Below, in pieces: positions 10,912-39,172 of a stretch of DNA of 64,000 bases (the stretch's first letter is position 1; each line of letters begins with the position of its first letter). The notes under the pieces are model-generated. The model was not told where the DNA came from and made no database searches. It saw only the letters and a list, made by a program, of their open reading frames with translations. The DNA lies in NCBI RefSeq assembly GCF_003932715.1, contig NZ_CP020700.1, forward strand, positions 5,664,501 to 5,728,500, given 5' to 3'. A program made the translations under genes and the position numbers. The DNA is from Streptomyces tsukubensis (GTDB lineage: Bacteria; Actinomycetota; Actinomycetes; Streptomycetales; Streptomycetaceae).

Positions 10912-10987
10912 GGCTGCTGCACCTCCCCGGTGCCGTGGGGCAGCGGCGATCGTACGCCACGTCCCCGGGCGGGCCCCCGGCGCGGTC

Positions 10988-12649: not shown

Positions 12650-12689
12650 GCCACCAGTGTGCCTTCCGTTTCACGGCGTTTAACGCCCG

Positions 12690-12712
12690 GTGAACGATTC
12701 GGTCGTGAACGA
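12690..12712. promoter_or_regulatory. GTGAACGA direct repeats in the kinase-dctA divergent promoter
   Basis: GTGAACGA occurs at 12690-12697 and 12705-12712, 15 bp apart on the same face of the helix apart from half a turn, and TTTCAC (12669-12674) lies upstream in inverted orientation. This is a reasonable binding-site candidate for the adjacent response regulator, since it lies about 100 bp upstream of dctA. Confidence 0.35.
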
Positions 12713-12806
12713 AATGCACGCAACGGTGACCCGGGTCACAGCGTGATGGATATTCACCGAAATCCATACGGGACATGGACCTGGCAATTTTTCCGAGGAG
12801 GACCCC

Positions 12807-14186
12807 TTGGCTGCGACAGCAGGCAGAAGGGACCGTACGCACTACCTGTACATCGCCGTGATCATCGCGGTCGTGGCGGGTATCGCCGTGGGCTTCGCAG
12901 CCCCCGGGGTCGCGGTCGAGCTCAAGCCCATCGGTACGGGCTTCGTCAATCTGATCAAAATGATGATCGCGCCGGTCATCTTCTGCACCATCGTGCTCGG
13001 CATCGGCTCGGTACGGCAGGCCGCGAAGGTCGGTGCCGTCGGCGGGCTCGCGCTCGGCTACTTCGTGGTGATGTCCACGGTCGCGCTCGCCATCGGCCTG
13101 CTCGTCGGCAACTTCCTGGAGCCGGGCTCCGGCCTCTCGATCACCGAGGAGGCCAAGGCCGCCGGTGACAAGGCGGCCGAGGGCGCGGGCGGCGAGTCCA
13201 CGGTGGACTTCCTGCTCGGGATCATCCCCAAGACCCTGGTCTCCGCCTTCACCGAGGGCGAGGTCCTCCAGGCGCTGCTCATCGCCCTGCTGGCCGGCTT
13301 TGCGCTCCAGGCGATGGGCAAGGCGGGCGAGCCCGTCCTCCGCGGTATCGGCCATATCCAGCGGCTGGTCTTCCGCATCCTGGCGATGATCATGTGGGTG
13401 GCCCCGATCGGCGCCTTCGGCGCGATCGCCGCGGTCGTCGGCGAGACCGGTATGGACGCCCTGAAGTCGCTCGCGGTCATCATGATCGGCTTCTATGTCA
13501 CCTGCGCCCTCTTCGTCTTCGTCGTCCTCGGCGCGCTGCTGAAGCTGGTGGCCGGGATCAACCTCTGGTCGCTGATGAAGTACCTCGGCCGGGAGTTCCT
13601 GCTCATCGTCTCCACCTCCTCCTCCGAGTCGGCGCTGCCGCGGCTGATCGCCAAGCTGGAGCACATGGGCGTCAGCAAGCCCGTGGTCGGCATCACCGTG
13701 CCCACCGGCTACTCCTTCAACCTCGACGGCACCGCGATCTATCTGACGATGGCGTCGCTGTTCATCGCCAACGCGATGGGCGACCCGCTGAGCGCCTCCG
13801 AGCAGATCTCCCTGCTGATCTTCATGATCATCGCCTCGAAGGGTGCCGCGGGCGTCACCGGCGCCGGGCTGGCGACCCTGGCGGGCGGCCTCCAGTCGCA
13901 CAAGCCCGAGTTGGTGGACGGCGTCGGTCTGATCGTCGGCATCGACCGCTTTATGAGCGAGGCACGCGCCCTGACCAACTTCGCGGGCAACGCGGTCGCG
14001 ACGATCCTGGTCGGCACCTGGACCAAGGAGATCGACAAGGAGCGGGCGGCGGAAGTGCTGGCGGGCCGTATCCCGTTCGACGAGTCGACGCTGCTCGACG
14101 ACGGCCACGGCGCGCTGCCGGACGACGACGACGCTGCCGCGGTGCCGGAAGCCCGGCCGGAGAAGAACGTGCCCGTGAAGGTCTGA
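12807..14186 (+). CDS. dctA: C4-dicarboxylate:cation symporter
   Basis: A 459-residue member of the DAACS family (proton or sodium:dicarboxylate symport into the cell). The start is TTG 12807, chosen because GAGGAGGA at 12795-12802 sits 4-6 bases upstream. It has eight hydrophobic helices plus re-entrant loops, the serine-rich STSSSESALP hairpin and the PTGYSFNLDGTAIY transport motif. The C-terminus is acidic (ALPDDDDAA). It is controlled, by inference, by the divergent two-component system. The stop codon region has been duplicated downstream (14175-14220) and a perfect hairpin follows. Confidence 0.95.
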   Translation: MAATAGRRDRTHYLYIAVIIAVVAGIAVGFAAPGVAVELKPIGTGFVNLIKMMIAPVIFCTIVLGIGSVRQAAKVGAVGGLALGYFVVMSTVALAIGLLVGNFLEPGSGLSITEEAKAAGDKAAEGAGGESTVDFLLGIIPKTLVSAFTEGEVLQALLIALLAGFALQAMGKAGEPVLRGIGHIQRLVFRILAMIMWVAPIGAFGAIAAVVGETGMDALKSLAVIMIGFYVTCALFVFVVLGALLKLVAGINLWSLMKYLGREFLLIVSTSSSESALPRLIAKLEHMGVSKPVVGITVPTGYSFNLDGTAIYLTMASLFIANAMGDPLSASEQISLLIFMIIASKGAAGVTGAGLATLAGGLQSHKPELVDGVGLIVGIDRFMSEARALTNFAGNAVATILVGTWTKEIDKERAAEVLAGRIPFDESTLLDDGHGALPDDDDAAAVPEARPEKNVPVKV

Positions 14187-14220
14187 GCCCTCTGTGAAGG
14201 TCTGAGCCCCTGTGAAGGTC
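14175..14220. repeat. microduplication of the dctA stop-codon region
   Basis: GTGAAGGTCTGAGCCC, which contains the last dctA codons and the stop, recurs at 14175, 14194 and (first 9 bases) 14212, with periods of 19 and 18 bp. It looks like a slippage event immediately before the terminator. Confidence 0.8.
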
Positions 14221-14245
14221 GGACCGCCGTGAGGGCGGTCCGACC
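14217..14245 (+). terminator. 12-bp perfect hairpin after dctA
   Basis: GGTCGGACCGCC (14217-14228) pairs perfectly with 14234-14245 around a 5-base loop (gtgag), 30 bases past the dctA stop. The remainder of the 214-bp gap leads into the promoter of the next gene. Confidence 0.8.
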
Positions 14246-14346
14246 CCGGTGAGGGCCCGGCCTCCTTCCACTGCGGAGCCCGGCGGTCCGTGCGTACTTC
14301 CCCGACGCACGGGCCGCCCGGCATTTCCGGCGGGGCCGCGGAAACT

Positions 14347-14391
14347 TACCTTCAGGTGGGTAGCCCCACTTCAAAGTGCGTACTTGTGGGG
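14347..14391. promoter_or_regulatory. two inverted repeats directly upstream of the imine-reductase-like gene
   Basis: TACC (14347-14350) and GGTA (14359-14362) flank an 8-base centre, and CCCCAC (14364-14369) and GTGGGG (14386-14391) flank 16 bases. The second dyad ends in the ribosome-binding region of the ATG at 14401, so either could act as an operator or as a translation-masking hairpin. Which one matters is not decidable from sequence. Confidence 0.3.
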
Positions 14392-14400
14392 GTTCCCGGC

Positions 14401-15351
14401 ATGGAAAACGATGGTCGTATGCCAACCGGAACCACTGTTTCTTCAGCCGTCTCTTCTCCTGTTACTCCTCCCCTTGCCGTGACCGTGATCGGCCTCGGCG
14501 CCATGGGCAGCGCCCTCGCCGGTGCCTTCCTCGACGCCGGGCACTCCGTCACCGTCTGGAACCGCACCCCCGGAAAGGGCGACGCCCTCGCCGCCCGCGG
14601 CGCCGTGGTGGCCGCGACCGCGGAGGAGGCCGTGACCGCGAGCGAACTGATCGTCGTCTGCCTCGTCGACTACGACGCTTCCGAGGCGATTCTGACCCCG
14701 CTGGCGAAGGCCCTCTCCGGCCGGACGCTGGTCAATGTGACTGCCGATGTCCCCGACCGCGCCCGGACCGCGGCGGCCTGGGCCGCGGAGCACGGCATCG
14801 CCTATCTGGACGGCGCGGTGATGGTGCCGACCGCGGTCGTCGGAACCCCCGCCGGACTGCTCTTCTACTCCGGCGACCCCACGACCTTCGAACGGTACGA
14901 GCCCGTCCTGCGGGCTCTCGGCGGCCGGACGGTCCATGTCGGCGACAGCCCGGACCGGGCGGCGGTGTTCGATGTGGCGCTGCTGGACCTCTTCTACGGC
15001 GCCATGGGCGCGATGATCCACGCCTTCGCGCTGGCCCGGGCGCACGGCGTCCCCGCGGCCGAGGTGGTGCCGTACATGACGAGCATCGTCGACCTGCTCC
15101 CCGAGGCACTGGAGGCGATGGCCGGGGACATCGACGCCCGGTCCTACCCTGCGCTCACCGCCGGGCTCGGGACGATGGCCGCTTCCGTCGACCACATCGT
15201 GCACGCCGGACGGGCCGCGGGCATCGACTCGGCCCAGATGGAGGGCATCCAGCGGATGACGGACCGGGCCCGAGAGCTGGGACACGCGGACTCCGGATGG
15301 GCGGCGAACTACGAGGCCCTGATCAACCCCCGTACCCGAGACCGGAGCTGA
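14401..15351 (+). CDS. NADPH-dependent imine-reductase-like oxidoreductase (beta-hydroxyacid dehydrogenase fold)
   Basis: 316 residues from ATG 14401; a second in-frame ATG at 14419 is possible. The N-terminal Rossmann domain carries GLGAMGSALAGAFLDAGH and WNRTPGK, the Arg/Thr pair typical of NADPH users. A long linking helix follows and then an all-helical C-terminal domain (VFDVALLDLFYGAMGAMIHAFALA; MTSIVDLLPEALEAM) like that of streptomycete imine reductases and reductive aminases. The physiological substrate is unknown. It is monocistronic, with its own promoter, and lies upstream of an independently promoted MerR gene. Confidence 0.85.
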   Translation: MENDGRMPTGTTVSSAVSSPVTPPLAVTVIGLGAMGSALAGAFLDAGHSVTVWNRTPGKGDALAARGAVVAATAEEAVTASELIVVCLVDYDASEAILTPLAKALSGRTLVNVTADVPDRARTAAAWAAEHGIAYLDGAVMVPTAVVGTPAGLLFYSGDPTTFERYEPVLRALGGRTVHVGDSPDRAAVFDVALLDLFYGAMGAMIHAFALARAHGVPAAEVVPYMTSIVDLLPEALEAMAGDIDARSYPALTAGLGTMAASVDHIVHAGRAAGIDSAQMEGIQRMTDRARELGHADSGWAANYEALINPRTRDRS

Positions 15352-15396
15352 GACCGGACCCGAGACCCGAATCCGTACTCCCCGCGGCGGGCGCTC

Positions 15397-15427
15397 TTGC
15401 CCTGACCTCGGCGTCAAGGTCTACGTT
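15397..15427 (+). promoter_or_regulatory. MerR-type promoter with 19-bp spacer, leaderless transcript
   Basis: TTGCCC (15397-15402) and TACGTT (15422-15427) are separated by exactly 19 bp, the over-long spacer that MerR-family activators untwist. Centred in the spacer is the dyad TGAC-N6-GTCA (15403-15416). The predicted transcription start falls at about 15434, at the ATG of the regulator gene (15435), so the mRNA should be leaderless and the regulator autoregulatory. Confidence 0.65.
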
Positions 15428-15434
15428 CGTCGGT

Positions 15435-15836
15435 ATGCGCATCGGTGAACTCGCGGAGCGGGCCGGGACCACCACCCGTGCCCTCCGTTACTACGAGTCG
15501 CGCGGGCTGCTGCCCGCGCGGCGCACGGAGAACGGCTACCGCGCCTACGACGAGAGCGATCTCCGACTGCTCGACGAGATCCGGACCCTCCGGAGCTTCG
15601 GCTTCGACCTGGAGGAGACCCGGCCGTTCCTGGAGTGTCTGCGCGCCGGGAACCCGGCGGGTGACGCCTGCCCGGCGTCGATCGCGGTCTACCGGGCCAA
15701 GCTCGGCGAACTCGATGCGCTCATCGGGAAGCTGACGGCCGTACGGGCACAGGTCGGGGCGCAGCTGGAGCAGGCGGAGGCGCGGCGGCGGGAGCCACAG
15801 CCGCGCTGCGGATTCGGATTCGGATACGGGGAGTGA
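15435..15836 (+). CDS. MerR-family transcriptional regulator
   Basis: 133 residues starting MRIGELAERAGTTTRALRYYESRGLLP, a textbook MerR winged-helix N-terminus, followed by a dimerisation coiled coil (residues 75-115). Two cysteines (LECLRAG and DACPAS, residues about 77 and 87) sit where thiol- or metal-sensing members keep ligands, so redox sensing is plausible but unproven. It overlaps the thioredoxin gene by one base (TGATG), so the pair is translationally coupled. Transcribed from the 19-bp-spacer promoter immediately upstream. Confidence 0.93.
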   Translation: MRIGELAERAGTTTRALRYYESRGLLPARRTENGYRAYDESDLRLLDEIRTLRSFGFDLEETRPFLECLRAGNPAGDACPASIAVYRAKLGELDALIGKLTAVRAQVGAQLEQAEARRREPQPRCGFGFGYGE

Positions 15837-16195
15837 TGGCCATGGCGGGAACGGGTACGGGTACGGGAGCGGGAGCGGTGTCCGAGGTGACGGACGCGGA
15901 CTTCGCCCGGGAGGTACTGGCCGCCGGGCGGCCCGTGCTGGTGAAGTTCACCGCCGACTGGTGCCCGCCGTGCCGGCAGATCGCACCGGTCCTGGCCGAG
16001 ATCGCCCGCGAGGAGGCGGACCGGCTCAAGGTGGTCCGGCTCGACGTGGACCGCAACCCCCTGACGGCCCAGCGGTACGGAGTGCTGTCGATGCCGACGC
16101 TGATGGTCTTCCGCGACGGCGAGCCGGTCCACTCGTCCGTGGGCGCACGGGCCAAGCGGAGACTCCTGGAGGACCTGGCGGGTGCACTGGACTGA
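15836..16195 (+). CDS. thioredoxin with WCPPC active site
   Basis: A 119-residue thioredoxin-fold protein. The active site is WCPPC (FTADWCPPCRQIAP) instead of the usual WCGPC; the cis-proline is in SMPTLMVF. The N-terminus is a short Gly/Thr-rich extension (MAMAGTGTGTGAGA). The start at 15836 overlaps the MerR stop; a further ATG at 15842 is possible. Pro for Gly between the cysteines should raise the thiol pKa and redox potential relative to TrxA, from general knowledge of CXXC chemistry. Its regulation by the coupled MerR protein is inferred from the operon. Confidence 0.92.
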   Translation: MAMAGTGTGTGAGAVSEVTDADFAREVLAAGRPVLVKFTADWCPPCRQIAPVLAEIAREEADRLKVVRLDVDRNPLTAQRYGVLSMPTLMVFRDGEPVHSSVGARAKRRLLEDLAGALD

Positions 16196-16229
16196 AGGGT
16201 GCGTCCACGTCCGGGCGGCTCCACCGCCC

Positions 16230-26526: not shown

Positions 26527-26530
<4 letters not shown>

Positions 26531-28515
26531 GGTGTGGGTGACCCTCCGATCGGCGGGGACGGTCGCAGAGCCACGATGTGCGCGGGCGTGACGCCCGGCT
26601 CCAGGCGCACGAAGGCGGCTCTGCCCCAGTGATAGGTCTCACCGGTGAGCAGATCGCGCACCGGGGCGGTCTCGTGCCATGCGAAGCCGAGTCGCGGCAT
26701 GTCCAACGAGACCGTCCCCTCCTGGGTGTGGTGGGGGTCGAGGTTCGCGACGACGAGCACGGTGTCCTGGCCCGACCGTTTCGAATAGGCGATCACCGCG
26801 TCGTTGTCGGTGTCGTGGAAGTGGAGGTCCCGCAGCTGCTGGAGCGCCGGATGGCGGCGTCTGATCCGGTTCAGCGCGGTGATCAGGGGGGCGATCGTCC
26901 GGCCCTCGCGGGCTGCGGACTCCCAGTCCCGGGGCCGGAGTTCGTACTTCTCCGACCGAAGGTACTCCTCGCTGCCCTCCCGCAGCGCGGTGTTCTCGCA
27001 GAGTTCGTACCCCGCGTACATCCCCCAGGACGGCGAGAGCGTCGCGGCCAGCACCGCCCGTACCTCGAAGGCCGGGCGGCCGCCGCGCTGCAGCGTCTCG
27101 TGGAGGATGTCCGGGGTGTTCACGAAGAGGTTCGGGCGGAGCACCGCCGCGCTCTCCCCGGCCAGCTCGGTCAGATACTCCGTCAGCTCGCTTTTGGTGT
27201 TCCGCCAGGTGAAGTAGGTGTACGACTGCTGGAAGCCGACCGCGGCCAGCGTCCGCATCATCGCCGGGCGGGTGAATGCCTCCGCCAGGAAGATCACGTC
27301 CGGATCGGTGCCGTTGACCTCCGCGATGACCTGCTCCCAGAACACCACCGGCTTGGTGTGCGGATTGTCCACCCGGAAGATGCGCACCCCCCGCTCGGCC
27401 CAGAAGCGCAGGACCCGCACCGTCTCCCGGACCAGGCCCCGCAGATCGGCGTCGAAGGCGACGGGGAAGATGTCCTGGTACTTCTTCGGCGGGTTCTCGG
27501 CGTACGCGATCGTGCCGTCGGCCCGGTGCCGGAACCACTCGGGGTGCTCGGTGACCCAGGGGTGGTCCGGCGAGCACTGGAGCGCGAAGTCGAGGGCCAC
27601 CTCCATCCGCAGCGCCTGCGCGGTCCGGACGAAGTGGTCGAAGTCGGCGAAGGTGCCGAGGTCGGGGTGGAGCGCATCGTGCCCGCCGTCGGCCGAGCCG
27701 ATCGCCCACGGCACGCCGACGTCGTACGGACCGGCGGTCAGGCTGTTGTCCGGGCCCTTGCGGTGGGTCGTCCCGATCGGGTGCACCGGCGGCAGGTACA
27801 CCACGTCGAAGCCCATCGCGGCGATCGCGGGCAGCCGTTCGGCGGCGGTGCGGAAGGTGCCCGAGACCGGGGGCGCGCCGGGCGCGACCACCGCCCCCTC
27901 GGAGCGGGGGAACAGCTCGTACCAGGACCCGAAGAGGGCCCGGCGGCGCTCCACCAGCAGCGGCAACGGACGGGACATGGTGACGAGTTCCCGCAGCGGA
28001 TGCCGGTCGAGGACGGCGGCGACCCCGGCACCGGCCGCGGCGGCCAGCCGGGCCCGGGGCCGCTTCGCGCTGTCCCGCAGCGCGTCCACCACCGCGAGCA
28101 CGGCCTCCCGCCCGTCGCTCTTGGGCACGTCCCGCGCCGCCCGCTCGTACAGCCGCGCCCCCTCCTCCAGCACCAGCTCGGTGTCGATCCCGGCCGGAAT
28201 CTTGATCCCGGCCTCCCGCAGCCAGCTCGCCACCGGATCGCTCCAGGCCTCCACGGCGTAGCTCCAGAGCCCCTCGGAGTCCGGCACCACGACCGCACTC
28301 CACCGGTCGCTCCCCGGCGCGGCCTCCCGCATCGGCGTCCACGGCCCCGGCTGCCCGGCCGGATCGCGCAGCACCACATTCGCGGCGACGGCGTCGTGCC
28401 CCTCCCGGAACACGGTGGCCCCGATCTCGATGGCCTCACCGACCACGGCCTTGGCGGGCCTGCGCCCGCAGTCGACGAGAGGACTGACGTCCAGAACGGG
28501 GATCCGACCGATCAT
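26527..28515 (-). CDS. glgE: alpha-1,4-glucan:maltose-1-phosphate maltosyltransferase
   Basis: 662 residues from ATG 28515 ([20 protein letters not shown]). GH13_3 enzyme extending alpha-1,4-glucan by maltosyl units from maltose 1-phosphate. N-terminal helical-bundle and beta domains (1-200), then the barrel with [30 protein letters not shown] (nucleophile Asp) and [12 protein letters not shown] (acid/base Glu). First gene of glgE-treS, followed on the same strand by treS and then mak-glgB: the full trehalose-to-glucan route. Its upstream neighbour here is the accessory cassette instead of glgP. Confidence 0.97.
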
Positions 28516-28854
28516 GGGCTCACCTGTGGGGGGCGGTACGGGCAGTACGGAGGCAAGCACGCGGGCACGCCGTAGCGCTATGCGGCTTTTAATGAAAGTT
28601 GCCCCTATTTGTAACCGCTGGATTACCGAGACCCGGCCCGGGACGCGGACGGCCCGTACCGATGGGGGGCGCGTTCACCCGGGGGGCGCAACGCCCCGCC
28701 GACGGGCCCACCGCCCGGCCCGGAACGGCGTCGAGCCCCGTACGGCACGGTGCCGTACAGGGCTCGGGAGTTCCCGGGGCGTCAGGACGGGAGCAGTTCC
28801 CAGCTCGGTTCCTTCGCTCCCGGGCGGAACAGCGCGAGGGCGGGGGGAAGGGTC
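28516..28854. other. 339-bp gap: glgE promoter region and reductase terminator
   Basis: No gene is seen. The strip 28580-28625 is AT-rich (ttttaatgaaagtt) and probably holds the glgE promoter on the minus strand. A 33-bp palindrome lies at 28733-28765. Confidence 0.5.
28733..28765 (-). terminator. palindromic hairpin downstream of the NmrA-type gene
   Basis: GAGCCC-C-GTACGGCAC (28733-28748) pairs with GTGCCGTAC-A-GGGCTC (28750-28765), 15 of 16 positions matching around a single central base. It lies about 90 bases past the stop of the gene at 28855 and marks the boundary between the accessory cassette and the glg cluster. Confidence 0.7.
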
Positions 28855-29796
28855 TTACGCGTCATACGAGTGCTCCGATTCGGTCCACATCTGCCAGGGC
28901 TGGCGGGCCACCCACTCCTCGGCCCGCGCGGGTTTCACCGACAGAGCGGTGGACGACAGCCCCTCGTCGCCCGTCAGCAGCGAGGGATCCGCGCCCGCCG
29001 CCATGTAGTGGTAGACACCGGAGACACCCGCCGCGGCCTCCGCCCCCAGCAGATGCGAGAGCCCCTGCTCGAAGACCGCCGGCTCCAGGGGGACGTACCG
29101 CACATCCCGGCCCAGTCCGCGGCCGAACTCCTCGGCCAGCTCCGGGCCGGTCAGCACGGCCGGTCCGCCGATGTCGAAGGCGCGGCCCGCGATCCCGTCG
29201 ACCGTCAGGGCCGCGAACACCGCCTCCGCGAGATCGCGGTGGGAGAGCCACGCCACCTGCGCGTCCTCGGGCAGCGGATAGGCCAGCACGCCCTCCGTCA
29301 TCAGCGCCGGACCGTTCCACGGACTGAACAGATTGTCGAGATAGACCGGCGGCCGGACCACGACCAGTTCCACCCCGCTGCCCGAAAGCCCCTCCCGGAA
29401 CACCGTCTCCGACAGCCGCCGGGTCTCGAAGCCGACCACGTTCGTCGTCCGGTCCGGGATCCGGACGTTCGTGTTGAACACCAGCCGCCGCACCCCGGAC
29501 TCCCGGGCCGCCCGCGCGATGTTCTGCGCGTACCGCAGGACCTTCTCCGCCTGGTAGACCAGCGGAAGCACCACCGCCGCATGGGTGGCGCCCTCGAACA
29601 GTTGCCGTACGTCCTCGAAACGCCCCAGGTCACCCCCGCCGCAGGAGATACCGGGAAGCTGCGGCCGCTCACCCTCCGGCCGGCGGCTGAGGGTACGGAC
29701 CTGATGGCCGCGCTCCACGAGCAGCCGCGCGGTGGCACCGCCCTGGAAGCCGGTCGCCCCCACGACGGCCACCCGCATCGGAATGTGATCGGACAT
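28855..29796 (-). CDS. NmrA-family NAD(P)-binding reductase
   Basis: 313 residues from ATG 29796. An atypical short-chain dehydrogenase: N-terminal VAVVGATGFQGGATARLL and RTLSRRPEGE (NADP-type Arg), a middle segment VFNTNVRIPDRTTNV, and VELVVVRPPVYLDNLF. The typical Tyr-x-x-x-Lys catalytic pair is not evident, as in NmrA regulators and some quinone or phenylpropanoid reductases, so it could be an enzyme or a redox sensor. Divergent from the AraC gene with a 119-bp shared promoter region; probably regulated by it. Confidence 0.85.
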   Translation of the reverse strand: MSDHIPMRVAVVGATGFQGGATARLLVERGHQVRTLSRRPEGERPQLPGISCGGGDLGRFEDVRQLFEGATHAAVVLPLVYQAEKVLRYAQNIARAARESGVRRLVFNTNVRIPDRTTNVVGFETRRLSETVFREGLSGSGVELVVVRPPVYLDNLFSPWNGPALMTEGVLAYPLPEDAQVAWLSHRDLAEAVFAALTVDGIAGRAFDIGGPAVLTGPELAEEFGRGLGRDVRYVPLEPAVFEQGLSHLLGAEAAAGVSGVYHYMAAGADPSLLTGDEGLSSTALSVKPARAEEWVARQPWQMWTESEHSYDA

Positions 29797-29915
29797 ATGT
29801 CTGAAGAGCCCTTCGATAAGGTTGAGGCCGCTGCCGGGTACCGCTCTTCCAGGCTCGCGGCGGCGGCTTCGGCCGATCAATTAACAAACCGGGTCGGAGG
29901 TTGAAGGATCGTCCA

Positions 29916-30899
29916 ATGGACTCTGTTGACACTGCCCGGACCGAGGGCGACGACCTTCTGAGCGAGCTGATGAGGCCACTGCGGCTCACCGGCGTGTTCG
30001 ACAGCCGGTGGAACCTCCGCGGCCCCTGGGCCATCGAGGGCGACGCCGAGGAGAGCTGTGCCGTCCTGCACTTCATCACCGAAGGCGACTGCTGGATCAC
30101 CGGGGACGGGCGGACCTCCTTCCGGCTCCACGAAGGCGATCTCGCGGTCTTCCCGACCGGAACGGCGCACCGGCTCTCCGACCACCCCGACCGGCGCGGC
30201 GGCGTCGCGCTCGGCAGCGTGCTGCCCGAGCGCGAACCCGGCACCTCCGGCGAGATCCGGATCGACGGGGAGGGGCCGGTGACCAGGCTGCTCTGCGCCG
30301 GACTCCACTACGACGCGTCCGCCGCCGGCGGGCTCTACCGGGCCCTGCCCTGGGCCCTGGTCCTCGACCGCTCCCAGGTCGACCAGGAACCGCTGCTCCG
30401 GGACACCCTCCGGCTGCTCGCCACCACCGACCGCCCGGTCGGCCCCGGCGACCGGCTGGTCACCCTGCGCACCTTCGAGATGGCGCTGGTGCTGGCGCTC
30501 CGCCCGCTGCTGCGGGAACTCGCCGACAACCCCGCCACGCTGCCCCTGCTGCGGCACCCGGGGATCAGCAAGGCGATGGTGATCATCTCGACCCGGTTCG
30601 CGGAGCCCTGGACCATCGAATCGCTGGCCCGCGAGGTCGGGATGTCCCGGTCCGCCTTCACCGCCGCCTTCCGGGAACTGGTCGGGGAGGCCCCCGCCCG
30701 CCATCTCACCGGACGGCGGATGCAGGAGGCCGCCCGGCTGCTGGGGGAGACGTCGCTGCCCCAGTCCGCGGTGCCGCAGCGGGTCGGCTACCAGAGCGCC
30801 GTCGGCTTCCATCTGGCCTTCCGCAAATGGTTCGGTGTGACCCCCGGCGAATACCGGGCAGGCAACCGTCCGGCCGCCGCACGGCTGGCTGGTTCTTAA
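29916..30899 (+). CDS. AraC-family regulator with cupin sensor domain
   Basis: 327 residues from ATG 29916 (AAGGA at 29904-29908); a TTG at 29901 is a poorer start. The cupin-like N-terminal half (CAVLHFITEGDCWITGDG; LHEGDLAVFPTGTAHRL) should bind an effector. The C-terminal double HTH comprises WTIESLAREVGMSRSAFTAAF and the second AraC helix pair SAVPQRVGYQSAVGFHLAFRKWFGVTPGEYR. It lies between the divergent reductase and the HpaB-like gene and is the obvious cassette regulator. Confidence 0.93.
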   Translation: MDSVDTARTEGDDLLSELMRPLRLTGVFDSRWNLRGPWAIEGDAEESCAVLHFITEGDCWITGDGRTSFRLHEGDLAVFPTGTAHRLSDHPDRRGGVALGSVLPEREPGTSGEIRIDGEGPVTRLLCAGLHYDASAAGGLYRALPWALVLDRSQVDQEPLLRDTLRLLATTDRPVGPGDRLVTLRTFEMALVLALRPLLRELADNPATLPLLRHPGISKAMVIISTRFAEPWTIESLAREVGMSRSAFTAAFRELVGEAPARHLTGRRMQEAARLLGETSLPQSAVPQRVGYQSAVGFHLAFRKWFGVTPGEYRAGNRPAAARLAGS

Positions 30900-30989
30900 T
30901 CACCACTGGACGCTCTCTCATTGCCCAGCCGTCCCGGACCGGGTGAGGCTCGGTACGGACGGGGGATGTGTTCCGTTTGAGGAGAAACG

Positions 30990-32471
30990 TTGATCAGGTC
31001 TGGCTCGCACTATCTCGATGCGCTGGACGACGGCCGGGAGATCTGGCTGGACGGCGAGCGCGTCAAGGGCGTGTCCTCCCACCCCGCCTTCCGCGGCACC
31101 GCCGCGTCCATCGCGGGTCTGTACGACCTGGCGCACGCCTCCGACCAGAGCCCGGTGCTCACCAGTGACGGGATCCACCGGGCGTACGCGATCCCCCGCA
31201 CCCACGCCGATCTGGTGGCCCGCCGCCAGGCCTACAAGGTGTGGGCGGAGGCGAGCTACGGCTTCCTCGGCCGCACCCCGGACTACATGGCGAGCGGCGC
31301 CGCGGGGTTCGCGGCCCTGCCCCGGCTGTTCACGACGGACACCTTCGACGGGTCGGACAACGTTCTCGCATACCACCGAAGACTGGCCGAGAACGATCTG
31401 TACTGCGCGTTCACCATCACCAACCCCCGCCCCCGGCCCGGCGGCGACGACCCCGTGGTGCGGGTCGTCGCCGAACGCGACGGGGGCGTCGTGGTGCGCG
31501 GCGCCAAGACCATCGGCTCCGGAGCGGTCTTCGCCGACGAGGTCATCGTCGGCACCATCGAACCGCTCGCCCCGGACGACGTCGAACACGCGCTCTGCTT
31601 CTCGCTGCCCGTCGACACGCCCGGACTGAAGCTGATCTCACGGACCTCGTACGAGGGCCGGGCCCGCAGCGTCTTCGACAATCCGCTCTCCTCGCGCTTC
31701 GACGAGAACGACGCGATGCTCGTCTGCGACGACGTGTTCGTGCCCTGGGAGCGGGTGCTGACCTACCGGAACGTGGCGGCGACCGCCGCGATGTGGTGGC
31801 GCACCCCCGCCTACCTCAACTTCGTCCACCAGGCCGCCACCCGCTTCTGGACCAAACTGGAGTTCCTCACCGGGCTCGCGATCCTGCTCACCCGGGACAA
31901 CGGCACCCATGGACTGCCCGCCGTCACCGAATCCGTGGGACGGCTCCTCGGCATGGTCGCCCAGGCCAAGGCGTTCGTCCTGGCCGCCGAAGCGTCCTTC
32001 GAGGAGGTCGACGGCGGCTGCGGAGGGGTGGCCCCGGGCACGGAGATATCCTTCGCCCAGCGCATCATGGCCGGTGAGCTGTACCCCCGCGCCGTCCAGG
32101 AGATCAAGAGCCTGGCCGGCGGGTCGGTCATCCAGCTCCCGGCGTCCGGCGAGGACCTCCTCCACCCCGAACTCGGCCCGCTGATGCAGCCGTACCTGAA
32201 CTCGGCGGAGAGCACCGCCGAGGACCGGGTGAAGCTGCTGAAGCTGGTCTGGGACGCCCTCGGCTCCGAATTCGCCTCCCGCCACGAACAGTACGAACGC
32301 TTCTACCACGGCGCCCCGCACGTCTATCTGATGATGCAGCACGGCGCCGGCGGCGCGGAGGGCTGCGAGCGGCTGGCCCGCGCCTGCCTCGACGGATACG
32401 ACCTCACCGGTCCCGGCCGGGGGCCCGGGGTGAGCACGGCGGGAGGCGCCGGCGGCGGGACCCGCCGGTGA
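30990..32471 (+). CDS. HpaB-type FADH2-dependent aromatic hydroxylase (4-hydroxyphenylacetate 3-monooxygenase family)
   Basis: 493 residues from TTG 30990, supported by GAGGAG at 30979-30984. Acyl-CoA-dehydrogenase fold; family marks are GRTPDYMASGAAGF near residue 95, YCAFTITNPRPRPG, KTIGSGAVFADEVIVG and FVPWERVLTYRN. The family hydroxylates a phenol ortho to the OH (4-hydroxyphenylacetate, tyrosine derivatives, chlorophenols) using FADH2 from a separate reductase. No reductase gene is in the cassette, so it must be shared. The tail (last 25 residues) is Gly-rich. A perfect 21-bp hairpin follows 12 bases after the stop. Confidence 0.9.
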   Translation: MIRSGSHYLDALDDGREIWLDGERVKGVSSHPAFRGTAASIAGLYDLAHASDQSPVLTSDGIHRAYAIPRTHADLVARRQAYKVWAEASYGFLGRTPDYMASGAAGFAALPRLFTTDTFDGSDNVLAYHRRLAENDLYCAFTITNPRPRPGGDDPVVRVVAERDGGVVVRGAKTIGSGAVFADEVIVGTIEPLAPDDVEHALCFSLPVDTPGLKLISRTSYEGRARSVFDNPLSSRFDENDAMLVCDDVFVPWERVLTYRNVAATAAMWWRTPAYLNFVHQAATRFWTKLEFLTGLAILLTRDNGTHGLPAVTESVGRLLGMVAQAKAFVLAAEASFEEVDGGCGGVAPGTEISFAQRIMAGELYPRAVQEIKSLAGGSVIQLPASGEDLLHPELGPLMQPYLNSAESTAEDRVKLLKLVWDALGSEFASRHEQYERFYHGAPHVYLMMQHGAGGAEGCERLARACLDGYDLTGPGRGPGVSTAGGAGGGTRR

Positions 32472-32483
32472 CGCACGCGCCCC

Positions 32484-32537
32484 CGCCGGTCGGGCTCCCC
32501 GCGGAGCCGCCCGGCACCGCGGGGAGCCCGACCGGCG
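32484..32537 (+). terminator. perfect 21-bp hairpin after the HpaB-like gene
   Basis: 32484-32504 is the exact reverse complement of 32517-32537, with a 12-base loop (agccgcccggca). It is the longest perfect stem I found in the window and should end the HpaB transcript, so the downstream PrnB-like gene needs its own promoter. Confidence 0.85.
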
Positions 32538-33115
32538 CGGGCGCGCGCCATGACAGCGTTTTCCCCGCGGTACGCCTCCCCTCTCATGGGTCTACCGGGC
32601 TTCCGCCCCGTCCCGGCGCGCCCACCGCGACGGCCCTACGCCGCCCCGGGCCCGACCGTCACCGGGCTCCCGGGATCCTCGCCACGGCCGCCCCCGGCGC
32701 AGGGGGCGGCTCCGGCGTGCACACGCAGCGGCACAGCGCTCACCCGGCGCTCGTCCCGGGCGCGGGGAGCGCGGGGCATGCCGCGCTCCTGCCCGTACGA
32801 CTGGGTACGACAGCCGCGGGTACCCAAGCTCCAGGGTCCGGCGAGCCGTCCCGCCCCGGCCCCGGACAGCACCCCGGCCCCGCCGTCCGGCCGGAATCCG
32901 TCACCAGGGGCCCGACCAGCCCCGGGCACGGGCCCTTACCGGGGTCCGCCACCGGCCGCGCGGCCGGACAGGAGCGCCGCAGCACCCCGGAGTGAGGGGC
33001 GCACGGCAGGCGTGCGGGCGCGTACCGCGCCGGGCGGCGGGGGGCCGCCCCCGTACGACCGTCCATTTGACCCGCACTTTCTTTCCCGTCGCGATGTGTC
33101 CGAGGGGGGCCTCCG
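32538..33115. other. 578-bp gap before the PrnB-like gene
   Basis: Open frames exist, but their composition (Pro, Arg, Gly, Ala) and lack of any recognisable domain argue against coding. TTGACC at 33066-33071 could be a -35 element for the gene at 33116; GGGGGG at 33103-33108 is its likely ribosome-binding site. Nothing else is seen. Confidence 0.4.
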
Positions 33116-34432
33116 ATGACCTTGCACGACCTTGTCGTACCCGGTTTCGCAGCACGCACCGAACCGTATTTCCGCATTCCCGAGATCCGGGCCGCCGATC
33201 CGCTCGGCGCCGATGCGCCACTGGCCCGGCTCCCCGCCATGAACGCCGCCGCCGACGTCCCCGCGCTCGCCGCGGCCCTGCGCGCCCTGCTCCCCGAACC
33301 CGAGGACGTCGCCCGCTACGACGTCCCCCACGCCCTCGCCGCCATGCGCGACCTGGGCATGTTCCTCGGCTCCCTCAAACGCCACGGCACCGAGCCGGTC
33401 GCCGCCGTCCCCTATGTCCTGCCCGTCCTCGAACACCTCGGCCGGATCACGGACATGGTGCCGCGCGACACCGTCCACCACTACACCACCTGGAACCCGC
33501 CCGGCGAACGCCTGCGCACCTACACCGGGCTGACCGCCGAAGCCCGGCTCCAGGACGCCGTCCGGATGGTGATACCCGGACTGGTCGCCGCCCTCGAACA
33601 CTGTGCCGAGCTGGCCGGGCTCGAACCGTACGACCCCGGATTCGCCACCGCCCTCGACCGGATCGCCGACTCCCTCGGCGCGATGGTCGAGTCCATCGAC
33701 TTCACCATCGCCCATGTCCCCCCGGTGGTCTTCGCCACCGATATCCGCCCCTACTTCGAGGAGATCGGCGTCGACGGCGTCGACTACCTCGGCCCGGCCG
33801 CCGCCCAGGTCCCCCTCTGGCTGGTGGACCTGACGCTCTGGCAGTGCGACCGGAGCGACCGCTCGTACGAGCAGTTCCTCGCCGAATCCGTCCGCTACAC
33901 CCTCCCGGGGTGGCGCGCCCACTACACGGCCCACCGCGACGGCACCTCCGCCGTCTCCAAGTTCTCCGCCGCCGTCAGCTGGGAGACCGAGGGCGGCCGG
34001 CCCCCCGCCCATCTGGTGCGATCCGGTTACTCACTCGTACGGGTGCTGCGTATCCTCAAGGCGTTCCGGGCCCGTCACATCACCGTGGCGCGCAAGGCGT
34101 ACGCGGAGGAAGTGCGGTTGTACGACAAGGGCAGCGGCGGTGCGCCCCTCGAACTGCTGCGCGCCGTCCTCGACCTGACGCGCGACAACGAGACCTTCGT
34201 GCGCCGGGCCGTTGAACCGGCGCGCGCCGGGGGACGTGCCCGACACGACGCGTGCGGGCCCGGCGACACCTGCGGGTCCGCCGCCGAGGGCTGCGCCTGC
34301 GGCGGGAACGACGGCCCCGGGAGACCCGGGGGAGACGGCGGCCGGAACGGCGGCGACGGCCGCGACGGCCGGAGCCGGAGCCGGAGCGTCCGGCGGGCAG
34401 GGACCGGAGAGGCCGGGGAGACGGAACAATGA
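33116..34432 (+). CDS. PrnB-like heme protein (indoleamine 2,3-dioxygenase superfamily, DUF1864) with Cys-cluster tail
   Basis: 438 residues. Similar over its first 365 residues to monodechloroaminopyrrolnitrin synthase PrnB as I recall it: MRDLGMFLGSLKRHG, HYTTWNPPGERLRTYTGL, MVESIDF, RPYFEEI, YLGPAAAQVPLWLVDLTLW and RILKAFRARHITVARKAY. His321 in that last motif aligns with the proximal heme ligand of PrnB. PrnB rearranges 7-chlorotryptophan; no halogenase or Rieske oxygenase lies nearby, so the product here must differ. Residues 372-438 are a Gly/Arg-rich extension with Cys380, 386, 393 and 395 (C-x5-C-x6-C-x-C). Overlaps the FAD monooxygenase gene by ATGA. Confidence 0.82.
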   Translation: MTLHDLVVPGFAARTEPYFRIPEIRAADPLGADAPLARLPAMNAAADVPALAAALRALLPEPEDVARYDVPHALAAMRDLGMFLGSLKRHGTEPVAAVPYVLPVLEHLGRITDMVPRDTVHHYTTWNPPGERLRTYTGLTAEARLQDAVRMVIPGLVAALEHCAELAGLEPYDPGFATALDRIADSLGAMVESIDFTIAHVPPVVFATDIRPYFEEIGVDGVDYLGPAAAQVPLWLVDLTLWQCDRSDRSYEQFLAESVRYTLPGWRAHYTAHRDGTSAVSKFSAAVSWETEGGRPPAHLVRSGYSLVRVLRILKAFRARHITVARKAYAEEVRLYDKGSGGAPLELLRAVLDLTRDNETFVRRAVEPARAGGRARHDACGPGDTCGSAAEGCACGGNDGPGRPGGDGGRNGGDGRDGRSRSRSVRRAGTGEAGETEQ

Positions 34433-35763
34433 CCCACTTCATGATCGCGGGCGGCGGTATCGCCGGGCTGACGGCGGCGCTCGCGCTCCACCGGGCCGGA
34501 TTCACCGCGGTCACGGTCGTCGAGGCGGCCCGCGAACTGCGCGCGGTCGGCGCCGGGCTGAACATCATGCCGAACGCCGTGCGTGAGCTCGACGAACTGG
34601 GGCTCATCGACGAGCTGTCGGCCCGCGGCCTCGCCACCCGTGAACTGCGCTACTACCACCGCAGCGGCGGGCTGATCTCCACCGAGCCCCGCGGTCTCGC
34701 CGCCGGGTACCGCTGGCCGCAGCTCTCCATCGGCCGCTGCGCCCTCCAGAGCGTCCTCGCGGACGCCGTACGGGAACGGCTCGGAGCCGAGGCCCTCGTC
34801 CCCGGCGTCCGGGTGGCCGCCGTGGAGCAGCAGCCCCACGGCCGCCCCCGGGTACGGATCCAGCACCGGGACGGCGTCCACCGGGGCAGCGGCTCCCTGG
34901 AGCCCGACGTCCTCATCGGCGCCGACGGGATCCGCTCCGCGGTCCGCGCCGGGCTCAACCCCGGCGAGGGCGAACCGCCGTGGAACGGGCAGCTGATCTG
35001 GCGCGGGGTGTCCCGGGTGCCCGCCGAACGTGCCGGAACGTTCATGTTCATCGCCGGTGACGACCGGCAGAAGGCCGTCGTCTACCCGATGGCCGCACCC
35101 GATCCGGAGGACGGTACGGTCCCGGTGAACTGGGCCCTCGCCATCCCCGCCGCACTGGCCGCCGAATCGGCGCCCCGGGACGGGTCCGGGGCGGCCGCCG
35201 AGTCCCCGGGCGCCCACCGCGGCGACTGGGACCGCCGGATCTCCGTCGAACGCGTCGCGCACCACTACCGCGGCTGGGAGTTCGGCGGTGTCGACGTGGC
35301 GGAGGTGGTGTCGGCGGCGGAGGCGGCGTACGAGTACCCGATGGTCGACCGGGAGCCGCTGGAGCGCTGGTCCCACGGCCGTACCACTCTGATCGGTGAC
35401 GCGGCGCACGCGATGTACCCGGCGGGCTCCAACGGCGCGACCCAGTCCGTCGTCGACGCCCGGGCGCTGGCCCAGGCGCTCTCCGTCCACCGCGACCCGA
35501 CCGACGCGCTCGCCGCCTACGAGGCCCACCGGCGCCCGGCCATGACGGAGATCCAGCGGGCGAACCGGAGGCACGGCCCCGAGGTCGTGATCGCCCTCGC
35601 CCATGAGCGCGCGCCCGGCGGCTTCACCGATATCGACGAGGTCGTCCCGCCCGCGGAGCGCGCGGAGATAGCGGCGCGGTACGCGGCGAAGGGCGCGTTC
35701 GACCCGGCGACGGTGAACCTCGGCTCCCCGTACGAACCGGGCCGCCCCCCGGCCCTGGACTGA
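34429..35763 (+). CDS. PhzS-like FAD-dependent aromatic monooxygenase
   Basis: 444 residues from ATG 34429, overlapping the PrnB-like stop. Class A flavoprotein hydroxylase: MIAGGGIAGLTAALAL dinucleotide fold, the DVLIGADGIRSAVR DG motif, and HGRTTLIGDAAHAMYPAGSNGATQSVVDARALA, whose MYPxGxNGAxQ form is that of PhzS and salicylate/3-hydroxybenzoate hydroxylases. It uses NAD(P)H and O2 to hydroxylate, often decarboxylatively, an activated aromatic ring. Tight coupling implies it acts directly on the product of the PrnB-like enzyme; that is inference. Confidence 0.9.
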   Translation: MTHFMIAGGGIAGLTAALALHRAGFTAVTVVEAARELRAVGAGLNIMPNAVRELDELGLIDELSARGLATRELRYYHRSGGLISTEPRGLAAGYRWPQLSIGRCALQSVLADAVRERLGAEALVPGVRVAAVEQQPHGRPRVRIQHRDGVHRGSGSLEPDVLIGADGIRSAVRAGLNPGEGEPPWNGQLIWRGVSRVPAERAGTFMFIAGDDRQKAVVYPMAAPDPEDGTVPVNWALAIPAALAAESAPRDGSGAAAESPGAHRGDWDRRISVERVAHHYRGWEFGGVDVAEVVSAAEAAYEYPMVDREPLERWSHGRTTLIGDAAHAMYPAGSNGATQSVVDARALAQALSVHRDPTDALAAYEAHRRPAMTEIQRANRRHGPEVVIALAHERAPGGFTDIDEVVPPAERAEIAARYAAKGAFDPATVNLGSPYEPGRPPALD

Positions 35764-35897
35764 CGCCCCGCCGGTACTGTCCCGCCGACAGGACCGGCCG
35801 CGCGGCCCGGGCAGCCGCCCCGTCTCGGCCCGGATCGGGGCGCCCCGGCGCCGGCGGGCCTTGCTGGTCACACGGCATGTGCAACATGCAGGCCGCC

Positions 35898-36088
35898 CCG
35901 GGCCCGGTGGGCCTTGCGGGTCTGGTGCCCGCGTCCGGCGGGGGTGTGCTGTGGTCCGTGTCCGGATGGGGTGGCTCGGGCGGGGCCGTGCGGGCCGCCG
36001 ACCCGTTCCGGTGGACTCCTGGGCCCTGGATCCCGACCCGGCCCCGGGTGGTCCGGGCCCGGTGGGCCTTGCGGGTCTGGTGCCCGCG
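35898..36088. repeat. 36-bp exact direct repeat, 155-bp period
   Basis: 35898-35933 and 36053-36088 are identical over 36 bases (core GGTGGGCCTTGCGGGTCTGG). A diverged fragment GGCGGGCCTTGCTGGTC precedes them at about 35853. These could be remnants of a duplicated segment or recombination scars beside the inserted cassette. Confidence 0.8.
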
Positions 36089-36357
36089 AATCCGGCGCGG
36101 GTGCGCCGCCGGGTCCCAGATGTGCCGCTCGTACGACGCGCTGCGGCCGGACGGCCGCCCGGGTCACCGGTTCGGGGCGACCGGACCCGTACCGTCCGCC
36201 CCGCGGCACCCGCCCGTCCCCGCCAGGTCGCTGGCCGCGGACGGCGGTGCGGCCGCCCCGGGGGCTCCGGAGCCGACGCCGGTCACGGCGCCTGCGGGAG
36301 GCGGCCGCACCGCCACCCGGCGCGGGACCCGCCGGGCCCGCGCCCCGGCAGGCTCTT

Positions 36358-36430
<73 letters not shown>

Positions 36431-36553
36431 GGGCCCGCGCCCGGCGGGGGCGCCTCACCCCGGTGCCCGCCCCGCCCTCCGCAGGAGACCCGCGGCGCGC
36501 GGGGGAGCGCGGGCGTCCGCGGGGATGGGGGTCGCTCCTGCGAAGGTGGGAGC

Positions 36554-39172
36554 GTGAAGGCCATCCGTCGGTTCACCGTCCGACCCGTCCTGCCCGAAGC
36601 CCTGCGCCCGCTCAGCGACCTGGCGCGCAATCTCCGCTGGTCGTGGCATACCGAAACCCGTGACCTGTTCCAGGCCGTCGACCCCGACGGCTGGCGGGCC
36701 TGCGACGGAGACCCCGTCCAACTGCTGGGAGCGGTACCGGCCGGGCGGCTCGCGGAGCTGGCCGCCGACCGGCGCTTCCTGCGCCGGCTCACCGCCGCCG
36801 CCGACGACCTCGACGACTATCTGCACGGCCGCCGCTGGTACCAGACCCACCCCCGGGCCGCCGAGTTCCCCGCCGCCGTCGCCTACTTCTCGCCCGAGTT
36901 CGGCGTCACCGCCGCCCTCCCGCAGTACTCCGGCGGCCTCGGCATCCTCGCCGGGGACCACCTCAAGGCCGCCAGCGACCTCGGCGCCCCCCTGATCGGT
37001 GTCGGTCTCCTCTACCGCCACGGCTACTTCCGCCAGTCGCTCTCCCGCGACGGCTGGCAGCAGGAGCACTATCCCCTCCTCGACCCCGACGAACTGCCCG
37101 TCACCCTGCTGCGGGAGCCCGGCGGCAGCCCCGCGCAGATCTCCCTCGCCCTGCCCGCCGGACGCTCGCTGCGCGCCCATGTCTGGGTCGCCCGGGTCGG
37201 CCGCGTCCCCCTGCTGATGCTCGACTCCGACGTCGAGGAGAACGGGCCCGGCGAACGCGATGTCACCGACCGGCTGTACGGCGGCGGCAGCGAGCACCGG
37301 CTGCTCCAGGAGATGCTGCTCGGCATCGGCGGCGTCCGCGCGGTCCGTACGTACTGCAGGCTCACCGGCCACCCCGGGCCCGAGGTCTTCCACACCAACG
37401 AGGGCCACGCCGGCTTCCTCGGCCTTGAACGCATCCGGGAGGCGGGCGAGGCCGGACTCGGTTTCGACGCCGCCCTCGAAGCCGTCCGCGCGGGCACCGT
37501 CTTCACCACCCACACCCCCGTCCCCGCCGGGATCGACCGCTTCGACCGCGAACTCGTCGCCCGGCACCTCGGCGACCGCGGCGCCCTGCCGGGCGTCCCC
37601 GTCGACCGGATCCTCCGGCTCGGCACCGAGACCTACCCCGGCGGCGACCCCCAGGTCTTCAACATGGCCGTCATGGGGCTGAGGCTCGCCCAGCGCGCCA
37701 ACGGCGTGTCCACGCTCCACGGCGCCGTCAGCCGCGGGATGTTCGCCGGTCTGTGGCCGGGCTTCGACGCCGAAGAGGTGCCCATCACCTCCGTCACCAA
37801 CGGCGTCCACGCCCCCACCTGGGTCGCCCCCGAGGTCTTCCGCCTCGGCGCCCGCCGGATCGGGGCCGGCCGGGCCGAGGACGCGCTCACCGTCGGCGGC
37901 TCCGAACTGTGGCACGCCGTCGAAGGCATCCCCGACGCCGAGATCTGGGAGCTCCGCCGCGAACTGCGCGAACAGCTCGTGACGGAGGTACGGACCCGGC
38001 TCCGGGCCTCCTGGCGGCAGCGCGGCGCGGGCGCCGCCGAACTCGGCTGGGTCGACGGGGTCCTCGACCCCGATGTCCTCACCATCGGCTTCGCCCGCCG
38101 GGTCCCCTCGTACAAACGCCTCACCCTGATGCTCCGCGACCGCGACCGGCTGCGGTCCCTGCTGCTGCACCCCGAACGCCCCGTCCAGATCGTCGTCGCG
38201 GGCAAGGCCCACCCCGCCGACGACGGCGGCAAACGCCTCGTCCAGGAGCTGGTGCGGTTCGCGGACGATCCGCGGGTCCGGCACCGGATCGCCTTCCTGC
38301 CCGACTACGGCATGGCCATGGCACAGAAGCTCTACCCCGGCTGCGACGTCTGGCTGAACAACCCGCTGCGCCCGCTGGAGGCCTGCGGCACCAGCGGAAT
38401 GAAGGCCGCCCTCAACGGCTGCCTCAACCTCTCCGTCCTCGACGGCTGGTGGGACGAGTGGTACGAGCCGGACTTCGGCTGGGCGATCCCCACCGCCGAC
38501 GGCGACGGTACGTCCGCGACGTCCACCATGGAGGAGGACCGCCGGGACGATCTGGAGGCGGCCGCGCTCTACGAGCTGATCGAGAACCGGGTCGCGCCCC
38601 GCTTCTACGACCGGGGACCGGGCGGACTGCCCCACCACTGGGTCGGGATGGTCCGCCGCACCCTCGCCGTACTCGGTCCGAAGGTCCTGGCCGGACGGAT
38701 GGTCCGGGAGTACGTGGAGCGGCTGTACGCCCCCGCGGCCGGCGCCCACCGGGCCCTGGACGCGGCGACCTCGGGCGATCTCGCCGGGTGGAAGGCCCGG
38801 GTGCGCGGCGCCTGGCCGAAGGTGGCCGTCGACCATGTGGAGGCGGTGGAGCACGCCCCCGCCGGGACCGCCGAGCTGGGCGTGGTGCTGGCCCTGCGGG
38901 TCCGGGTGGCCCTCGGGGATCTGACCCCGGACGATGTCGAGGTGCAGGCGGTCGCCGGTCGCGTCGACGCGGACGACGCGATCACCGAGGCCCGCCCCTA
39001 CCCCCTGAAGCCCGCGGGTGGTCCGGATCTGGAGGGGCGGGTGGTGTACGAGGGACCGCTGCCCCTGGACCGTACCGGCGCCTTCGGTTACACCATCCGG
39101 GTCCTCCCGTCCCACCCGCTGCTGGCGTCCCCGGCCGATCTCGGCCTGGTCGCCTGGCCGGGGACGCGCTGA
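36554..39172 (+). CDS. glgP: alpha-glucan (glycogen) phosphorylase
   Basis: 872 residues from GTG 36554 (MKAIRRFTVRPVLPEALRPL), preceded by GGTGGGAG. Releases glucose 1-phosphate from alpha-1,4-glucan; in the GlgE system this is the catabolic arm. GT35 short actinobacterial type: YFSPEFGVTAALPQYSGGLGILAGDHLK, HTNEGHAGFLGLERI, TNGVHAPTWV, GKAHPADDGGK, and the pyridoxal-phosphate Lys in EACGTSGMKAALNG. The long open frame upstream of 36554 is not conserved and is not included. Confidence 0.96.
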   Translation: MKAIRRFTVRPVLPEALRPLSDLARNLRWSWHTETRDLFQAVDPDGWRACDGDPVQLLGAVPAGRLAELAADRRFLRRLTAAADDLDDYLHGRRWYQTHPRAAEFPAAVAYFSPEFGVTAALPQYSGGLGILAGDHLKAASDLGAPLIGVGLLYRHGYFRQSLSRDGWQQEHYPLLDPDELPVTLLREPGGSPAQISLALPAGRSLRAHVWVARVGRVPLLMLDSDVEENGPGERDVTDRLYGGGSEHRLLQEMLLGIGGVRAVRTYCRLTGHPGPEVFHTNEGHAGFLGLERIREAGEAGLGFDAALEAVRAGTVFTTHTPVPAGIDRFDRELVARHLGDRGALPGVPVDRILRLGTETYPGGDPQVFNMAVMGLRLAQRANGVSTLHGAVSRGMFAGLWPGFDAEEVPITSVTNGVHAPTWVAPEVFRLGARRIGAGRAEDALTVGGSELWHAVEGIPDAEIWELRRELREQLVTEVRTRLRASWRQRGAGAAELGWVDGVLDPDVLTIGFARRVPSYKRLTLMLRDRDRLRSLLLHPERPVQIVVAGKAHPADDGGKRLVQELVRFADDPRVRHRIAFLPDYGMAMAQKLYPGCDVWLNNPLRPLEACGTSGMKAALNGCLNLSVLDGWWDEWYEPDFGWAIPTADGDGTSATSTMEEDRRDDLEAAALYELIENRVAPRFYDRGPGGLPHHWVGMVRRTLAVLGPKVLAGRMVREYVERLYAPAAGAHRALDAATSGDLAGWKARVRGAWPKVAVDHVEAVEHAPAGTAELGVVLALRVRVALGDLTPDDVEVQAVAGRVDADDAITEARPYPLKPAGGPDLEGRVVYEGPLPLDRTGAFGYTIRVLPSHPLLASPADLGLVAWPGTR

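Follow-up and report, generated by a model that had tools for sequence, protein, structure and literature searches.

In a 64,000-nt stretch of the Streptomyces tsukubensis genome (contig NZ_CP020700.1, positions 5,664,501 to 5,728,500; "the window" means this whole stretch), five genes located between glgE and glgP (28855..35763) encode a PrnB-family heme protein, a PhzS-like and an HpaB-type flavin monooxygenase (FMO), an NmrA-type reductase and an AraC-family regulator. With about even confidence, we read them as a compact biosynthetic set that makes a tryptophan-derived metabolite via an aminophenylpyrrole-type product and that has a fixed chromosomal position, between these two genes, in some members of the genus Streptomyces. 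The cassette is noteworthy for its conservation, for the tryptophan evidence in related clusters and for the altered active site of its HpaB-type protein. All five genes had been named in an earlier note on this DNA and were recovered in the six-frame list and the domain scans, the remaining long frames being treated as mechanical; identification of the neighbours confirmed the placement between glgE and glgP. The features are:

28855..29796, minus strand: NmrA-type NAD(P)-binding reductase (PF05368, E 7.3e-23; nucleotide-binding motif GATGFQGG)
29916..30899, plus strand, divergent from the NmrA gene: AraC-family regulator with a Cupin_6 domain (PF12852, E 1.4e-36; PF12833 (HTH_18), E 3.1e-20)
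30990..32471, plus strand: oxygenase part of an HpaB-type two-component flavin monooxygenase (PF11794 (HpaB_N), E 3.4e-78; PF03241 (HpaB), E 2.4e-51)
32472..33115, plus strand: interval without exporter (37 of 45 loci have a major facilitator superfamily (MFS) exporter at the same place)
33116..34432, plus strand: PrnB-family heme protein of 438 aa (PF08933 at 141.3 bits, gathering cut-off 27)
34429..35763, plus strand: PhzS-like single-component FAD monooxygenase (PF01494 (FAD_binding_3); NF005720/PRK07538; best PDB match 2rgj)
26527-28560, minus strand: glgE, left neighbour of the cassette
35861-39172, plus strand: alpha-glucan phosphorylase gene glgP (TIGR02094), right neighbour

His321 and Ser340 of the window PrnB protein align with His313 and Ser332 of PrnB, the former of which we take to be the iron ligand. 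The same serine column holds Ser319 of FbPrnB, the carboxylate-binding serine (PMC11791213). The last ~60 residues (window 34240-34432) form a low-confidence Cys/Gly-rich tail, and the solved PrnB chains, of 361 and of 370 residues, stop short of this tail. In keeping with the earlier note, the protein groups with no primary-metabolic family among the rows compared in a PrnB-family tree.

Evidence on the substrate comes from related clusters. Using the window PrnB protein, we fetched 60 loci by a peptide scan of genome contigs, an approach that favours close relatives. In 48 of them, glgP adjoins the cassette; the other 12 comprise two loci cut by contig ends (L014, L027), eight that bear a ketosynthase (KS) gene, and two others (L053, L056). 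The KS-bearing actinobacterial PrnB clusters, here called sister clusters (L050-L052, L054, L055, L057, L058, L060 and L095), have the order AraC (minus strand), FMO, HpaB, MFS, NmrA, KS, PrnB, FMO, DsbA, BBE, with the first FMO, HpaB and MFS genes missing from L050. Among the fetched loci, DsbA occurs in all eight KS-bearing ones and BBE in six of the eight. The residue columns compared are almost identical in the sister-type PrnB proteins and in those encoded at the glgE–glgP site (glg-type).

Four sister loci (L054, L055, L057, L095) include trpC, trpD, trpG and trpE, and L058 has trpC and trpD up to the contig end; the domains were confirmed for trpC of L055 and for trpD, trpG and trpE of L095. 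In L050 and L060, apparent trpC matches at the BBE gene were an artefact of an over-long query and vanished when trpC alone was used. Furthermore, the Glycomyces copy (L056) is accompanied by a tryptophan halogenase (E 9.8e-163), a flavin reductase and a KS. The earlier note had proposed tryptophan or tyrosine; because related clusters hold trp genes and a tryptophan halogenase, tryptophan is favoured, while nothing encountered points to tyrosine, at which no test was aimed. We strongly infer, with rather high confidence, that tryptophan is the substrate of the PrnB protein.

The stand-alone KS beside PrnB in L050, L051, L052, L054, L055, L057, L058 and L060 has Gln in place of the catalytic Cys (VDCAQASSL, VDTAQASSL), by which it presumably resembles the loading-module KSQ decarboxylases; the KS of the Glycomyces copy and that of a plasmid copy (L120) keep the catalytic Cys. 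The mansouramycin pathway, which starts from tryptophan, was also considered as a home for the cassette and set aside: the main text of one paper on it has no occurrence of heme, PrnB or 4-hydroxyphenylacetate.

Known PrnB accepts plain L-Trp (PMC11791213), and plain aminophenylpyrrole has been isolated from a marine bacterium (PMC2630848). By analogy with its family, we give roughly equal chances for and against an aminophenylpyrrole-type product of the window PrnB protein. L-Tryptophan would bind the heme protein as it does PrnB, with the amino group on the iron and the carboxylate at Ser340; oxidation, rearrangement and decarboxylation of the unchlorinated substrate would yield a 3-(2-aminophenyl)pyrrole-type product. 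The PhzS-like flavoprotein would probably oxidise this product next, and the HpaB-type oxygenase would oxygenate it further (on the aniline or pyrrole ring, or on the amine) without the usual phenol-activating His, using FADH2 from a reductase encoded elsewhere. The NmrA-type protein may reduce an oxidised (quinoid or imine) intermediate and, to judge from the gene arrangement, the AraC protein would control the divergent pair. In most relatives, the product would leave via the MFS exporter; the window strain would have to use another.

Several findings weigh against this reading. The 58-row tree places the window protein in a clade of 39 rows and pyrrolnitrin PrnB in another of 16 rows, each with support of 100/99. 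At or near the pocket, moreover, Tyr replaces Val117, Ala-Ala replaces Gly223-Ala224, Gln replaces Glu226 and Ala replaces Tyr335, so the reaction may differ from that of PrnB. No trp genes were seen in the available DNA of L051, L052 and L060, or before the contig end in L050, and the trp queries matched nothing in any glg-type locus or in the window. Aminophenylpyrrole is a possible dead-end product according to PMC2630848, and isolated PrnB yielded no product in vitro (PMC11791213). The ATGA overlap of the PrnB and flavoprotein genes, to which the earlier note had pointed, is present in the window (ATG at 34429, stop at 34430-34432), yet an ATGA/GTGA overlap is seen in just 8 of 49 cassette loci.

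The HpaB-type protein departs from the chemistry of its namesake. In HpaB, the triad is Arg100-Tyr104-His142, of which the His deprotonates the phenol (PMC10537072). The window protein keeps Arg95 and Tyr99 and has Phe141 at the position of the catalytic His. In an alignment of 56 rows (55 distinct; the incomplete L001, L032 and L102 were left out), Arg is invariant, Tyr occurs in 45 rows (Cys in 11), and His occurs in none, all 56 having Phe. Since the phenol-activating His is Phe in every copy, the substrate is probably no plain phenol, or else it is activated differently. The protein also scores below the cut-offs of the NCBIfam HpaB equivalogs (276 of 480.2 bits and 268.5 of 885.2 bits). 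A nearby helix has an invariant His (window His280; 56 of 56 rows) in a column where Escherichia coli HpaB, 4oo2 and five further relatives lack His. A His displaced by one column is present in 4oo2 and in three of those five, one of which is a trichlorophenol monooxygenase. We do not claim His280 as equivalent to the catalytic base of HadA-type enzymes (PMC8342789), since the His of these relatives sits one column off; HadA itself lies outside the alignment.

The earlier note had also held that the flavin reductase partner is missing: there is none among the five cassette genes and no PF01613 place in the window, and five PF01613 candidates lie elsewhere in the genome. Its proposal of two flavin hydroxylations presupposes ordinary HpaB phenol chemistry, which is not to be assumed with the His replaced by Phe; this weakens the picture of two phenol hydroxylations. 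A more specific version of the aminophenylpyrrole reading, which we consider unlikely, has the HpaB-type protein oxygenate the aniline nitrogen or ring in place of the Rieske enzyme PrnD; this would make a halogen-free, pyrrolnitrin-like route, established chromosomally in many Streptomyces, to an undescribed actinobacterial family of aminophenylpyrroles, to which the KS-bearing sisters would add an acyl unit.

The altered HpaB site also bears on the alternative that survives best, though we still rate it as rather improbable: the heme protein could be a tryptophan hydroxylase (giving 5-, 6- or 7-hydroxytryptophan) similar to Luz15, an actinobacterial heme-dependent tryptophan 5-hydroxylase (Shi et al. 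2023, as cited in PMC13036774, PMC11904535 and PMC12921851), with the flavoproteins then oxidising the hydroxyindole to a quinone-type compound. A hydroxyindole would fit two flavin monooxygenases, and the PrnB homologue of the paenidepsin cluster has been proposed as an indole hydroxylase (PMC13036774); however, that homologue is not in a clade with Luz15 according to the same paper, and the His that would deprotonate such a phenol is Phe in all copies of the HpaB-type protein.

The cassette is accessory at the glgE–glgP site, as the earlier note had proposed. In a set of 150 Streptomyces genomes, 19 have a PF08933 match (the window genome among them), while glgE is matched in 130 and glgP in 139. 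Gene positions of 112 and 102 genomes were compared, with glgE places taken from among the matches listed, and we kept the 100 genomes that have glgE and glgP on one contig within 40 kb. PrnB lies at the site in 11 of these, where the interval measures 7,979-16,984 bp; 84 have no PrnB and an interval of 357-10,813 bp (median 1,588), and in the remaining five, a PrnB relative lies elsewhere and the interval is short (338-748 bp). The cassette is thus not a feature of the interval in all relatives. Of the 19 PrnB-bearing genomes, 11 are glg-type, one (G098) has a KS-bearing cluster and the other seven carry more distant relatives; three of these seven gave no glgE–glgP distance on a single contig. 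A phylum-level sample of 396 genomes gave PrnB matches in only two, one being the window genome.

Eight PrnB-free genomes have 5.1-10.8 kb between glgE and glgP (slightly overlong in two cases, measured via partial glgP matches), so the site accepts other content. Among the long glgE–glgP intervals are those of L096 (G034) and L099 (G055). Within the cassette of L097 (G025), a 1,916-codon frame between the HpaB and AraC genes (10447-16197) reads like an Rhs/YD-repeat protein.

The earlier note had described a local insertion. Instead, the sequences indicate that the cassette is old and shared and that, some gains or losses apart, it has mostly been passed down together with its flank: besides its place next to glgP in 48 of the 60 loci, PrnB distances track glgP distances (51 loci, r = 0.814, none of 2000 permutations as high), and a quick glgP tree of 51 carriers and 40 chosen non-carriers needs seven label changes, as compared to 30.0 when labels are shuffled. 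The starred branches of that tree force at least four changes between carrier and non-carrier. A single origin at the glgE–glgP site is not shown by the glgP tree; the glg-type PrnB proteins nonetheless form one clade (16 rows, 100/99). The closest PrnB proteins have 90-95% identity (Streptomyces qinzhouensis and an NPDC strain), and the carriers include cultured Streptomyces gardneri (L031), Streptomyces narbonensis (L024), Streptomyces exfoliatus (L044) and Streptomyces zaomyceticus (L033).

Gene content was counted in 45 loci, the window included, with glgE, PrnB and glgP all present. NmrA and AraC occur in all 45, the PhzS-like protein in 44 and HpaB in 43, and 37 have the MFS exporter between HpaB and PrnB; L023 was scored as exporter-less despite a partial match and L032 as HpaB-less despite a fragment. 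The exporter and the NmrA-type reductase would also suit a detoxification or stress cassette, in which the AraC protein senses an aromatic compound, the oxidases and exporter clear it, and the PrnB protein acts on exogenous indole. The Cupin_6 AraC protein is indeed related to RclR, at 121 of 400 bits and therefore below the equivalog cut-off. We hold this explanation to be unlikely, as the trp genes in some sister clusters and the KS in all eight KS-bearing loci are biosynthetic rather than degradative.

The PhzS-like protein passes NF005720/PRK07538 (479.5 against 400 bits) and carries its FAD motifs at 66, 223 and 380 of P0006. Its closest solved structure, 2rgj (E 1.5e-78), is, like 3c96, what we take to be PhzS of Pseudomonas aeruginosa, an enzyme that acts on 5-methylphenazine-1-carboxylate. 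This closeness speaks against a pathway of catabolic or kynurenine type, in which tryptophan ring opening as by indoleamine 2,3-dioxygenase (IDO) would be followed by a kynurenine-monooxygenase-like flavoprotein. Moreover, formamidase and kynureninase are absent among the five cassette genes, and membership of the window PrnB protein in the IDO family was rejected, as it matches PrnB instead: it gives no PF01231 match at E up to 1, and five of 50 relatives match PF01231 at E 0.0018 or weaker. Ring opening is quite unlikely.

In the window, the usual exporter is missing and a 644-bp interval takes its place; L002, L016, L031-L033 and L043 are likewise without it. We dropped the idea of an MFS remnant in 32472..33115, where only short, weak matches were found and none was convincing (best tblastn E 0.004). 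Directly 3' of hpaB lies a G+C-rich hairpin (about 32475-32548; −82.5 kcal/mol, z −10.09) without a T-run. Because of this stable hairpin, the PrnB and flavoprotein genes may be transcribed apart from hpaB; a sigma-70 promoter scan found nothing. Neither the missing exporter nor the hairpin figures in the earlier note.

That the window cassette is a decayed remnant of a larger KS-bearing cluster, no longer productive in this strain, would fit the missing exporter, KS, DsbA and BBE partners and the genome-wide matches, none of which was called an orthologue (28 to the sister-type exporter, best 45%; 66 to KS, best 49% and mostly in very large frames; best DsbA 36%; BBE lay outside the search), but it is very unlikely, given that all five frames are open with active-site residues kept and that the glg-type PrnB proteins form one clade and share their reduced gene set throughout the 45 loci, which indicates a stable state.

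Regarding the genes and their neighbours, likely ATG starts are at 29796 (NmrA) and 29916 (AraC), and the HpaB gene starts with TTG preceded by GAGGAG. Phosphorylase homology begins only near 36536. Further left, glgE is adjoined by a minus-strand alpha-amylase-family gene, which we read as trehalose synthase.

Other PrnB relatives occur in different surroundings. A second, distant Streptomyces group (L088, L089, L091-L094; about 29-37% identity) adjoins genes for a putative pyridoxal phosphate-dependent decarboxylase and a GHMP-kinase-like protein (domains checked for L089). Six plasmid records carry PrnB relatives, all below 60% identity; the plasmid of Streptomyces sp. NBC_01717 (L120, 13389-18039) has the order DoxX, PrnB, flavoprotein, KS near genes annotated MazE7 and Doc, and resembles the Glycomyces set. 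In a gammaproteobacterial metagenome-assembled genome (L053, 8915-12416), a DsbA-like gene, PrnB and a flavoprotein lie beside fatty-acid and other housekeeping genes, and this PrnB is placed next to the glg-type clade (support 94/63).

No literature on a PrnB cassette between glgE and glgP was found by title or abstract start, in a search whose coverage took in few subscription papers, nor did a metabolite or an enzyme assay come to light there. The cassette encodes a PrnB-family pathway with different partners, the member families being already known; its clade probably stands for a new class of tryptophan-derived metabolites. The KS-bearing clusters share with it the larger PrnB clade and the AraC, HpaB, MFS, NmrA, PrnB and PhzS-like genes (HpaB and MFS not in L050); they lie away from glgE–glgP and add a second flavoprotein (not in L050), KS, DsbA, mostly BBE and, in some loci, trp genes. 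As compared to 4-hydroxyphenylacetate 3-hydroxylase (HpaB), the cassette protein shares both domains, the Arg and mostly the Tyr, whereas Phe replaces the catalytic His and no HpaC gene adjoins. PhzS is the closest solved relative of the flavoprotein, which in the cassette partners a heme protein and not phenazine genes. IDO, tryptophan 2,3-dioxygenase and the heme enzymes forming hydroxytryptophan belong to the same superfamily of histidine-ligated heme aromatic oxygenases (PMC11791213).

The window PrnB has 37% identity with the PrnB of the pyrrolnitrin pathway prnABCD, known from Pseudomonas, Burkholderia, Serratia and Myxococcus, and beyond the separate clade and changed pocket, the cassette differs in its partners: HpaB, PhzS-like and NmrA proteins accompany the heme protein, and no PrnA/PrnC-type halogenase or PrnD is encoded. 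Both absences had been remarked upon in the earlier note and hold within the scope of our searches: in the window genome, PF04820 gave two short matches to the FAD-binding start only, one of them the cassette flavoprotein, and the search for the Rieske N-oxygenase was confined to the five genes of the cassette. The unusual heme reaction of PrnB resists reconstitution with the isolated enzyme (PMC11791213), and a large, divergent PrnB clade with recurring flavoproteins offers a candidate redox context for it.

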